Assembly: GCF_001304615.2 (NCBI RefSeq)
Contig: NZ_CP032683.1
Location: 1,736,001 to 1,800,000 of the forward strand
From: Methanosarcina flavescens
GTDB lineage: Archaea > Halobacteriota > Methanosarcinia > Methanosarcinales > Methanosarcinaceae
Length of the DNA: 64,000 nucleotides
Reading direction: 5' to 3'
Part shown: positions 1,282 to 63,716 of the stretch, in pieces
Layout of the letters: each line of letters starts with the position of its first letter
Position numbering within the stretch: the first letter of the stretch is position 1
Made by a program: the position numbers and the translations under genes
The notes under the pieces: model-generated
What the model saw: the letters and a program-made list of their open reading frames with translations, nothing else
What the model was told of the DNA's origin: nothing
Databases searched by the model: none

Positions 1282-2112
1282 TTACTGTGGCTTTTCGTAT
1301 AATTTTACTTTTTTCAGCAGAGTACCGTTCTTTGCATGGGGCTGCCTGAATACAGTATCATTGGATTTTTCAATTTCTCTTGCCTGTGTTGCAAGCTGCG
1401 CAGCAGCTTCCATTATCTCATGTCCGGCTGCTGCTGTAAGGCACACCTGTTCGATTTCTTTTAACATGAAACATGCGGGGAAATTAACCTGTGCTACTTT
1501 CTCAGCCATATGAAGAGCAGCCAGAGCTTTTGCTTTTGCATAAGGGTTTGCAAAGCCAGCATGCTCAACACATTTCTCAGGTTTTGCAAAAATGTGTGGG
1601 AGCTCCAGTTCCTTTCCTGATCTGCCAGATGCAACCTGGTCGGTTACCTTATCCAGTTCTTCCTGAATGAGTCTAACAACACCACAAATGGATAGCACTT
1701 TCATTGCATCGGAGTTGAAGGATGCCATCTCCACTGGGTCAAGGAACTCTCTCTTTGCTCCGATAAGAGGGTCTACCGGAAGAATTATATACCCGAAGCC
1801 TTCCTGCTCAAGAGCTTCTCTGGCTTCTTTCTTTGTTGGGCCATCTGAGACTACAATACAAGGGACGTCTTTCCAGATCTCACGAGCCGCAGTGGGACCC
1901 GGAGCTGCTGCATTCGGGCTGATAATTACCACGAAATCTGCATTCCACTGTTTGAAACTTTCACTATCAGCAGCTTCGGCAGGGCTCATCTTAGCCCCTG
2001 TACCAAATACACGTACTATAATCCCTTCTCTAGCTGCAATTTCATCCTGGATCAGATTGATAACCTGGCTCATTCCCAGGTTGCCCATTTTTATAAAACC
2101 TATGTTGACCAT
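1282..2112 (-). CDS. mtd: F420-dependent methylene-tetrahydromethanopterin dehydrogenase
   Basis: Mtd interconverts methylene- and methenyl-tetrahydromethanopterin (tetrahydrosarcinapterin in Methanosarcina) with coenzyme F420. It is a cytosolic step of methanogenesis and runs in the oxidative direction when methanol is disproportionated. The protein matches the family over its full length, about 276 residues, beginning VNIGFIKMGNLGMSQVINL and including SPNAAAPGPTAAREIW and FGYIILPVDPLIGAKREFLDP. I place the start at the ATG at 2112; a TTG three codons upstream is also in frame but gives an atypical N-terminus. The gene stands alone on the minus strand with a TATA-like tract near 2210-2222. 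Confidence 0.95.
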   Translation of the reverse strand: MVNIGFIKMGNLGMSQVINLIQDEIAAREGIIVRVFGTGAKMSPAEAADSESFKQWNADFVVIISPNAAAPGPTAAREIWKDVPCIVVSDGPTKKEAREALEQEGFGYIILPVDPLIGAKREFLDPVEMASFNSDAMKVLSICGVVRLIQEELDKVTDQVASGRSGKELELPHIFAKPEKCVEHAGFANPYAKAKALAALHMAEKVAQVNFPACFMLKEIEQVCLTAAAGHEIMEAAAQLATQAREIEKSNDTVFRQPHAKNGTLLKKVKLYEKPQ

Positions 2113-48279: not shown

Positions 48280-49070
48280 ATGAGGATCCTGGTTATCATG
48301 GGAAGCCCGCGAAAAGGCAATACCTATAGAGCGGTAAAGAAAATTGAAGAATACATGCGGTCTATGGACAACGTTGAATTCGAATACCTGATGCTCAAAG
48401 ATGCATGCCTGTCGCAGTGTCGCGGCTGTTATGTCTGTCTTGCAAAGGGTGAAGAGTATTGTCCATTTAAAGATGGAGTTCCCCTTATCGAACAAAAGAT
48501 GCATGCCGCCGATGGCGTGATCTTTGCTTCACCTGTTTATGGTATGAATGTTTCTGCACTCATGAAAATCTTTGTTGACCGATTTTCTTATATTTTCCAC
48601 CGACCCCGTTTTTTGATAAAAAAGCTCTTCTTCTCTCCACTACAGGCGCTGTGGGTCTTAAGGAAGTTCTCGATTACCTTAAACTGGTAGCTGATATATG
48701 GGGTTTTGAGGTATCCCAAAGTATTGGTCTTATAACTCCCCCAGGTATGATCTCCAAAAAACAAGAGCAGGAAAATAACCGGAAACTTGAAAAAGCCGCA
48801 CTTGAGTTCTACAATTCCTTCCAGAAAAAACGGCGCTCTCCGGGACTTAAAGATGTACTGGTTTTTCGTGCGCAGAAGGCAAGTTTTGGCAAACCTGGGT
48901 ACACTGGTTCTGCTGATTATGCTTACTGGAAAGAAAAAGGCTGGCTCAACCCGGAAGCAAAGTATTACATGGATGTACCTGTTAATCCTGTTTACAATGC
49001 CATTGGCTGGATCTCTGAACAGATAATAAGAAGAAAAATGGAAAAAGAGATAGCTGAATTAGGAGAATAA
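48280..49070 (+). pseudogene. NAD(P)H-dependent FMN reductase family gene with a frameshift
   Basis: The flavodoxin-like start (MRILVIMGSPRKGNTYRAVKKIEEYM), CRGCYVCLAKGEEYCPFKD and ADGVIFASPVYGMNVSALMKIFVDRFSYIFHRPR run in one frame to about 48612. The rest (DKKALLLSTTGAVGLKEVLDYLKLVADIWGFEV...) is one base out, ending at 49070. The break is at a run of six T's (CCCGTTTTTTGAT); one more T, or a -1 slip there, restores a normal protein of about 263 residues. The clean distal frame suggests a recent mutation, a sequencing error or programmed frameshifting. The family reduces flavins or quinone-like compounds and often has Fe-S cysteines as here. Confidence 0.75.
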
Positions 49071-49295
49071 ACTCTTTCTTTTTTAAAATTCCTGTAGAGA
49101 TGTAGGATATAATATCCAAGGCTTTAAATTCAAGATTTTAATATAAAATCATCGTCTTATCTTTTTAAGAAATAATTTGTAATTTATTCTTTAAATACCT
49201 CAAGATACAATAAAAATACATTATTAATATTTAATTGTTTTTCGATTTTAAAACATTTCCTATGAAAATAACTTTTGTTAAGAAACAATTTTTCG

Positions 49296-49620
49296 TATAA
49301 TTAATTTAAAATAACAATCGGGACATTGTATAATATAACGGGAGCAAACAGGTCAAAGAAATGAGAAAATCGGTATGGTATGTGAGAAAAGCGCTATCCG
49401 GGAGGAGTTGATTCTACTCCGAGTATACTTGAGGGGGTATATCTTGGGAGACGGTGCAGATACAGAGAGAAATACAACTCTTTCTGGAGTTCCTCCTGTG
49501 TACGATAAAAATTGCCCGGAAGAGATTGATTCCATTCCGAAATAAAACTTGATGGGAGCATATATTTGGAGCGACTGTATCGGGGGCTACAGTAAGCAGG
49601 AATTAACTCTTCCGGCGTTC
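49296..49620 (+). ncRNA. Structured non-coding element, locus A (two tandem copies)
   Basis: Promoter-like TATAATTAATTTAAAATAA (49296-49314) is shared exactly with locus C. Copy A1 is closed by a 13-bp stem, CCGGGAGGAGTTG (49398-49410) with CAACTCTTTCTGG (49475-49487), and has a hairpin GTATAC / 8-nt loop TTGAGGGG / GTATAT (49423-49442). Copy A2 is closed by CCGGAAGAG (49516-49524) and CTCTTCCGG (49607-49615), and has hairpin ACTGTA / TCGGGGGC / TACAGT (49574-49593) after a TTGATGGG segment. The copies share order and loop sequences with loci B and C. Confidence 0.65.
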
Positions 49621-50161
49621 CTTCAATCTTTTGTCAATAATCTTTTTTCCAGTATTTAATTGATTCTAATTAATCAAACTCTGACCTGTAGTTAGAATTT
49701 GTGTGCTCTTTTATACTCTCAAGTTCCTTTTTAAAGTCTTGCTATGCCTGCACAGCTATAGCCTGCACAGCTAGCTATATACACATATAAGTAGACAGGC
49801 AAGTTCAAGAACTCTTTATTGTTTGGATTTTCTCTTCTTTCGATTTAATAAGAATAGATTCTTTCCTTACTTTTTAACTTTGTTTATTAATAAAAATAGT
49901 TCGAAATCCTTTATTTTTCTAAAGGCGCTACCCAGTATAAATGATTCTTCCGAGGAGATTTGTAAACGTATAATTTGATCTTTTTATGACCTCGTAAAAC
50001 AGGTCTATATAAGTAACTCTGCCAATAAAAACATTTTTCAGCCGTCTTTTAAGTTATATTTATTTCTTCGTTCTCTCCCATGAAAAGTTCCTCCATCGAT
50101 AATTTTATAAATCACTTGCTTATATGAATTTAACCGAAATAAATTATCTTGCTTAATTATC

Positions 50162-61417: not shown

Positions 61418-61664
61418 GCACGTTAAGGCTTTTACTTATAGATTAATTCATGTACTTAATTTTTGTGCCAGCTCGGGACTCTTTCGTGTTAATTTTTCCA
61501 GCCAGCTCCCTTTCTCTATATTTCCATCTTTTCTTTCTACATTTGCGCTTTGTATTAATTTTCCTTTAAGACTCTCAATCTCTTTATATTTATGAGTACA
61601 GTTCTTTCATGGCTTTGAAATATTTTCTACGAGACTGCTTTTCGCTTGCAAGCAATTTTTCAGA

Positions 61665-61875
61665 TAATAAATTTAAAATAATTTATTTCATTACTATATT
61701 GTGGAGCTGAAAGAGAAAGGGTATGATCGAATAGCGAAGTAGTGGGTTGTGACAGAATTGCCCGGGAGCTGGCTGTTCTTGCTTCAGGATATGTTTGATG
61801 GGAGCAGATTCCGGAAGCGGCTGTAGTGGGGGATACAGTAATGAACCAAATGCTCCCGGGCTTCTCTTCTTACCA
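61665..61875 (+). ncRNA. Structured non-coding element, locus B
   Basis: Upstream AAATTTAAAATAA (61669-61681) resembles the promoter of loci A and C. The closing stem is perfect: CCCGGGAGC (61761-61769) with GCTCCCGGG (61852-61860). Inside is TTGATGGGAGC (first hairpin region, 61794-61805), then hairpin CTGTA / GTGGGGGA / TACAG (61821-61838). A pyrimidine tract CTTCTCTTCTT follows. AATTGCCCG before the stem is shared with A2 and C. Confidence 0.65.
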
Positions 61876-62111: not shown

Positions 62112-62448
62112 TTATTCTGTTATTTCCGCTGTGACTTCCAGTACAGAGGGTTATTCTACTCCATATTCTCACCTCATGGTTCCAAAACATATTTTTGAGT
62201 AATTTTTATCTTTGCTGAGTCTTTTTCAGCATTTCGAAAAGCTGGAGATTTCTTTGAAGATTTTTATTGAAATTTCCAGTCAAATCATGAGATTCAAATT
62301 ACTCCATGTTCAAACTTTTTACTACTGGATTCTATTTTCAAGGCTTATTAATCCCCGGCTAATGCTAAAAACTCGTTTAATCCGAAATTATGCTTCGATT
62401 TTAAAACTTTCTATGCGATGGCATTTTTCGTTTGAGACTAATTTTTGA

Positions 62449-62660
62449 TATAATTAATTTAAAATAATTATGGGGACAATCATACACTGTAGTTGGGAGA
62501 GACAGAACGAGTGAGTAACGGGTATGAATAAGTTGTAAAGAATTGCCCGAGAGCTTTTGGTCCTGTTCTGAATCATATGCTTGGGGGAGCGTATCTTCGG
62601 GGCAACCGTATCGGGGGCTGCGGTAAGGGACATAAGGCTTTCGGGCTTTTTCTTACTCTT
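62449..62660 (+). ncRNA. Structured non-coding element, locus C
   Basis: Promoter-like TATAATTAATTTAAAATAA (62449-62467) is identical to locus A, and TTCGATTTTAAAAC lies exactly 55 bases before it in both. The closing stem is 13 bp: GCCCGAGAGCTTT (62545-62557) with AAGGCTTTCGGGC (62634-62646). Hairpin 1 is ATATGC / TTGGGGGA / GCGTAT (62575-62594); hairpin 2 is ACCGTA / TCGGGGGC / TGCGGT (62605-62624). A run of T's follows, as expected of a terminator. Confidence 0.7.
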
Positions 62661-63173: not shown

Positions 63174-63716
63174 TGATTACGCAGTATATTGTGTCCTATC
63201 CTGTGTCTTTACCTGACCTCTCAGTACTTATTCTTCTGGGCGTCTTTGTACTCACACTCAGGCAGGTCGGGTCTTTAAGGTTGTTAGCAGAAGGCATATT
63301 GAGATCGTAAGAAACATTGACTGGGCAACTCTCGTTTTTTCGTTTCAATATTTGTGCTAATGCAAAACGTGTGGGTTTCCGGAAATGCCAGGAACTGCTT
63401 GCAAGGATGTCTCCGCAGTTAGGCTCTGTATCAATGATCCTTGTGCTCAGTATTGGACTTAGCCAGCTAATTTCTAATGTCCCCTTTGTTGCGCTCTATC
63501 TGCCTGCCAGGGGAGTACAGTTTCTCAGGGACAGTTGATGGCTCTTGCTGCTGGAAGTACAATTGCAGGAAACCTTTTGATTCTGGGGACTGTGAGCAAC
63601 GTTATTATCCAGAATGCGGAAAAAGAGAGAAAAACTATTTCATTTGCCGAATTCTCTAGAATTGGGATCCTAATAACAATTTTAGATACTATTATCCATT
63701 TTATCTTTCTCTAACT
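63174..63716 (+). pseudogene. Decayed SLC13/ArsB-like anion transporter gene
   Basis: Three plus-strand fragments in different frames read in order like one membrane transporter: MITQYIVSYPVSLPDLSVLILLGVFVLTLRQVGSLRLLAEG, then MSPQLGSVSMILVLSIGLSQLISNVPFVALYLP, and finally LAAGSTIAGNLLILGTVSNVIIQNAEKERKTISFAEFSRIGILITILDTIIHFIFL. These match the end of SLC13/ArsB-type permeases (ISNVP and AxGSTIxGNLLILGxxSN motifs). Several frameshifts and missing parts mean it cannot be functional. Confidence 0.65.

Follow-up and report, generated by a model that had tools for sequence, protein, structure and literature searches.

Structure of Locus C

The window, i.e., the whole stretch of DNA analyzed here, comprises 64 kb of the Methanosarcina flavescens genome, and locus C lies close to its 3′ end. 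On the plus strand, a conserved promoter (62417-62498; promoter model R3, E = 5e-18) is followed by a G/A-rich, largely unpaired 5′ leader of subtype GAGTGAGTAACGGGTATGAATAAG (62490-62539), the three-way-junction core of an RNA designated RNA C (62540-62651; model R2, E = 1e-23) and, after the closing stem, a pyrimidine tract (62647-62660). The promoter contains CAATTTTT-like direct repeats and a TATA-like box within 62456-62467; over 19 bases (TATAATTAATTTAAAATAA at 62449-62467) it is identical to that of locus A, as the original prediction had pointed out. Based on the distance to the box, transcription of RNA C, which is itself an inference, probably starts near 62490; the start is inferred, too. 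It also delimits the leader, which was characterized by a leader listing and k-mer enrichment. The pyrimidine tract, recognized by a C/T-rich composition 3′ of 111 copies of the RNA, is probably a terminator, a function which is likewise inferred.

In the MFE fold, the core is closed by a stem of 13 bp (62545-62557 with 62634-62646), in agreement with the stem proposed before. Hairpin 1 (P2, 62575-62594) reads ATATGC-TTGGGGGA-GCGTAT and hairpin 2 (P3, 62605-62624) ACCGTA-TCGGGGGC-TGCGGT, both on the plus strand. Each of these G-rich hairpins had been predicted to carry an 8-nt loop. Both were found; as a refinement, alignments support a U-A and a U-G pair inside the loop of hairpin 1, which probably narrow it, and its free part may be only 4-6 nt. 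Hairpin 2 differs from its counterpart in copy A2 (ACTGTA/TACAGT) in the paired manner claimed, one T-A pair being replaced by C-G and another by T-G at locus C. The fold is unusually stable (z = -5.4), with none of 200 dinucleotide-matched shuffles reaching the same stability.

Further copies are located upstream in the window, also on the plus strand. Copy B (61755-61866; R2, E = 2e-18) has its own promoter (61630-61711; R3, E = 3e-18). Locus A holds a tandem pair consisting of the degenerate copy A1 (49391-49494; R2, E = 6e-6) and copy A2 (49509-49622; R2, E = 1e-16), and a single promoter, the only one found for the two, serves both (49262-49315; R3, E = 5e-11). Compared to shuffles, fold z-scores are -4.4 for A2 and -4.3 for B, and only -1.8 for A1. 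The R2 E-values of C, B and A2 are those of copies belonging to the training set of this model. A1 was detected by the first covariance model (E = 3e-4; see below), in whose training set it was not included.

Family Size and Distribution

The RNA family is confined to the genus Methanosarcina and a single sister genus. The covariance-model search of Methanosarcina genomes that had been suggested on the basis of four copies revealed many more copies in which the pairing is kept. A first model, made from seven copies of the M. flavescens genome, detected 12 copies in this genome, five of them outside its training set, as well as 1-23 copies per genome in 30 of 31 Methanosarcina genomes. Mean identity among the M. 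flavescens copies is approximately 63%. A refined model built on 125 copies matched all 31 Methanosarcina genomes and all four genomes of the sister genus, resulting in approximately 280 copies in total, many of which form tandem clusters. According to this model, almost all Methanosarcina genomes have at least four copies; a single weak copy is present in the near-complete genome G024. No match was obtained with the refined model in 77 genomes from the other 12 genera of Methanosarcinaceae. Within a phylum sample of 393 genomes, 20 matched, every one of them being Methanosarcina or the sister genus. The named records hit in a pattern scan were Methanosarcina, except for one Methanosarcinaceae archaeon and one unclassified euryarchaeote.

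In two Methanosarcina genomes (G016 and G017; L053 and L052), the promoter model matches 16-34 times, but the RNA model only 6-9 times. Since promoter matches outnumber RNA matches, a diverged branch of the RNA was probably missed there.

Covariation and Loop Sequences

The claim of a multi-copy structured non-coding RNA with compensatory changes was borne out by the further copies found with the covariance model, whose sequence changes preserve the structure. In an alignment of 130 copies, 92.9% of the pair cells hold standard pairs, compared to 84.3% in shuffles. Double compensatory changes were observed at 34 of 36 base pairs, a value matched by none of 500 shuffles; slid registers likewise fall far short of the observed pairing. 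As this alignment had been fitted to the model, 36 copies were realigned with MAFFT without constraints and the structure was predicted de novo. P3, the arm P2 and the outer section of the closing stem reappeared, with double changes at 20 of 27 pairs, but the prediction from these 36 copies lacked the inner section of the closing stem and the base of P2. In our judgement, which is not a computed value, it is nearly certain that the family is a real structured RNA.

Stems and leaders vary, and the G-rich loops are the least variable part of the RNA. Across the 130 copies, the P2 loop is mostly TTGGGGGA, which is also the P3 loop of 71 copies; another 16 copies have TCGGGGGC in P3. A mimic of the Shine-Dalgarno sequence was considered as well and is disfavored, as GGAGG occurs in the P3 loop of only 2/130 copies.

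Promoter and Leader of the Family

The promoter consensus was derived from 64 distinct promoters. An 86-bp promoter precedes 112 of the 125 copies examined. It combines a TATA-like box with a proximal CAATTTTT element, and a second, distal match is mostly located 17-18 bp further upstream. Promoter and RNA models match the identical 35 of 112 family genomes. As a rule, each copy is a free-standing gene for an RNA of approximately 165 nt, its transcription being inferred. Across the family, the G/A-rich leaders fall into subtypes such as GGGGTATCATC, ATCTACCACA and GAGTGAGTAACGGGTATGAA. In one leader subtype (L013, upstream of 1501-1614, minus strand), GTGTGG and CCACAC could pair, which would add another hairpin upstream of the core.

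A Zinc-Ribbon Gene With the Same Promoter

Strong matches of the promoter model in the M. flavescens genome are limited to the RNA loci and a single additional site. There, the promoter belongs to a second class of gene, which encodes a zinc-ribbon protein of 46 aa with two CxxC motifs (MKYLKTCPKCQGNLELHSDGETQYCNICSYWTKTGTARLDSIMIYG; G000:C1:2822081-2822218, equal to L246:1501-1638, minus strand). Judged from this promoter sequence, the zinc-ribbon gene is a member of the promoter group of the RNA. At 11 loci in 10 genomes, one of them in the sister genus, a zinc-ribbon ORF follows an RNA copy of the same orientation after 56-110 nt, and at six further loci the gap is 821-897 nt. Two of the 11 close loci have a stop inside the ORF. 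In eight genomes, a gene of the zinc-ribbon family has the promoter, and in its leader just fragments of the RNA are left, or nothing recognizable. The gene thus keeps its promoter without the RNA fold, which its expression accordingly does not require.

The protein matches no family of Pfam or NCBIfam above cut-off; structure prediction gave a three-stranded model with moderate confidence. Of 112 Methanosarcinaceae genomes, 97 encode the zinc-ribbon family, which has several paralogues, and most of the genera concerned lack the RNA. Since it is distributed family-wide and mostly in genera without the RNA, the protein has a more ancient role, and its connection to the RNA may amount to no more than a borrowed promoter. 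Co-occurrence was rejected as evidence for a partner, as a family-wide protein is not singled out in this way. A conserved acidic ORF of 22 aa (MEYELEEVERDYIEFRKEMGEE) was seen 3′ of the zinc-ribbon ORF in L236, L237, L245, L246 and L249.

Genomic Neighbors

Neighboring genes were observed to be conserved in up to 9-10 genomes. The order DUF711-RNA-TPP-enzyme is kept in nine genomes, and relatives of copies B and C adjoin a CitMHS gene in nine genomes. At the TPP-enzyme locus, copies share 86% similarity among themselves and 68% with other copies; for nine of the ten copies there, the nearest relative occupies the same locus. A common function among the neighbor genes was not found, as these are diverse and only show positional orthology. 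Two neighbors in the window appear damaged. The CitMHS-type transporter gene beside locus C (63180-63710) looks broken by frameshifts, and a longer CitMHS reading frame stands beside RNA copies in nine other genomes. Upstream of locus A, a frameshift near 48640-48690 divides an FMN-reductase-like gene (48280-49073) into two frames; its C-terminal part has a relative which flanks RNA copies in L076 and L105.

Comparison With Known RNAs

A scan of the window with Rfam 15 at gathering score returned only two tRNAs and no family at the RNA loci, and a relaxed Rfam search gave nothing credible at these loci. The RNA had not been recognized as a named family before, and the Rfam result is consistent with this. 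A description of the family was not found in the literature searched, but small RNAs reported from M. mazei dRNA-seq may already include individual copies. Novelty is, therefore, claimed only in the sense that Rfam 15 does not list the family and the literature searched does not describe it.

In bacteria, CsrB and RsmZ are multiple, co-regulated RNAs which sequester a protein by repeated hairpins with a G-rich loop motif. The archaeal family resembles them in having several co-regulated RNAs and repeated hairpins with G-rich loops. It differs in that there are two hairpins in a three-way junction and that the loop is UUGGGGGA instead of ANGGA. Each RNA has two G-rich loops, many of which end in GGA, but there is no ANGGA consensus. 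LhrC of Listeria is reportedly a multicopy family of base-pairing sRNAs with several dispersed and tandem copies, a shared mode of control and C-rich loops. Multiple dispersed or tandem copies under a common promoter type are present in our family, too, but its G-rich loops contrast with C-rich ones that pair to the Shine-Dalgarno region, and fold and host are different.

Comparisons with RNAs known from Methanosarcina rest on published descriptions and not on sequence alignments. The sRNA162/sRNA171 of M. mazei is 191 nt long with the layout SL1-SL2-39-nt single-stranded linker-SL3, and is found as a single copy beside ArsR-family genes in M. acetivorans and M. barkeri (PMC3510493). It is similar to our family in being a structured intergenic RNA of comparable size in the same genus with conserved promoters (PMC3510493). 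The family described here, in contrast, forms a three-way junction with P2 and P3 and has many copies with diverse neighbors; identity was rejected on the basis of copy number and layout. For sRNA154, the description is that of one gene under nitrogen regulation, which carries a leaderless ORF of 20 aa at nt 4-66. Like our family, it is a structured RNA of Methanosarcina; it is regulatory and has two functional loops. An ORF of this type is absent at locus C, where the first ATG from approximately 62490 opens only four codons. Judged from the published descriptions, identity with sRNA154 was rejected, a single gene with a 20-aa ORF being opposed to a multi-copy RNA without such an ORF.

Possible Function

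The RNA very probably acts in trans, although this is inferred and the grade is our judgement rather than a computed value. Trans action on one constant partner is suggested by the unrelated neighbors, the tandem amplification and the near-constant loops on changing stems. As overall best explanation we propose, with a probability of roughly 0.4 (judged, not calculated), that the RNA is a co-regulated multi-copy RNA capturing an RNA-binding protein, by analogy to CsrB. The RNA copies and the one small zinc-ribbon gene would be switched on together via the shared upstream elements. Each RNA unit would lead from the conserved promoter through the short G/A-rich leader to the three-way junction of closing stem, P2 and P3, and end with the pyrimidine tract. 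The two G-rich hairpin loops would be the working surface; they are assumed to bind a single invariant partner because they are near-constant while stems and leaders change. Capture would be dose-dependent as in CsrB/RsmZ, with copy number and tandem copies supplying the binding sites. The common partner, like expression of the RNA, is inferred only, and both its protein nature and its identity are speculative. The co-expressed zinc-ribbon protein would be the first candidate, but without interaction data we consider it rather improbable that it is the partner, again by judgement and not by computation. An archaeal counterpart of Csr/Rsm in the full sense, where a genus-specific set of up to 23 co-regulated RNAs with two G-rich hairpins each would titrate a small RNA-binding protein, perhaps the 46-aa zinc-ribbon protein, and thereby set translation or stability of many mRNAs in Methanosarcina, is an analogy which we regard as conceivable, yet unlikely.

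The main rival of protein capture is base pairing to C-rich RNA. The G-rich loops, perhaps together with the variable leaders, could bind C-rich mRNA sites or a conserved RNA by base pairing and control translation or stability, a doubtful but serious possibility. Multicopy sRNAs, LhrC being one, are known as base-pairing regulators in bacteria, and the distinct leader subtypes are possibly seeds. Base pairing is also used by the Methanosarcina sRNA162 (PMC3510493) and by sRNA154. The loop complement TCCCCCAA is mildly over-represented, so that base pairing stays a candidate, with 97 sites in the genome against 55 for the reversed control, although approximately nine of these lie inside the family itself and the search for loop complements identified no target site. 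Nearly the same loop sequence across the genus speaks against this rival. Constant loops would also fit pairing with a constant RNA target.

Another role in an RNP or in housekeeping, with the junction as a scaffold, as a ribosome-associated RNA or as a dimer via its G tracts, would suit the conserved core with two G-rich loops, and two RNAs together would, by inference, provide four G tracts. Such a role is unlikely, as copies range from 1 to 23 between species and one near-complete genome has the single weak copy mentioned above, unlike housekeeping RNAs. Still less support remains for a cis-acting, riboswitch-like leader or attenuator of downstream genes. The RNA is directly upstream of the zinc-ribbon ORF at the 11 close loci, but this ORF is downstream of only 14 of 125 copies examined (within up to 1.6 kb), the remaining downstream neighbors are diverse, and the fold is dispensable for the gene in the eight genomes described above. 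Finally, a mobile or selfish, MITE-like repeat, which a dispersed multi-copy element of approximately 250 bp may recall and which had been named before as a possible objection, is hardly tenable, because copies keep their genomic neighbors across species, promoter and compensatory changes are maintained, and the sole match on a viral contig is a chance match in coding-like sequence.

Protein capture by a multi-copy RNA remains our preferred reading, and the findings suggest an undescribed regulatory RNA system in the methane-making Methanosarcina, which are model archaea. Only a small number of regulatory RNAs are understood in archaea, and the ones investigated in Methanosarcina are portrayed in the literature as single genes or as products of recent duplication. 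A family of many conserved copies behind a common promoter implies a shared signal, transcription factor and partner, which can be tested in genetically tractable methanogens. For the unnamed small zinc-ribbon protein found family-wide, the RNA family also provides a first handle.
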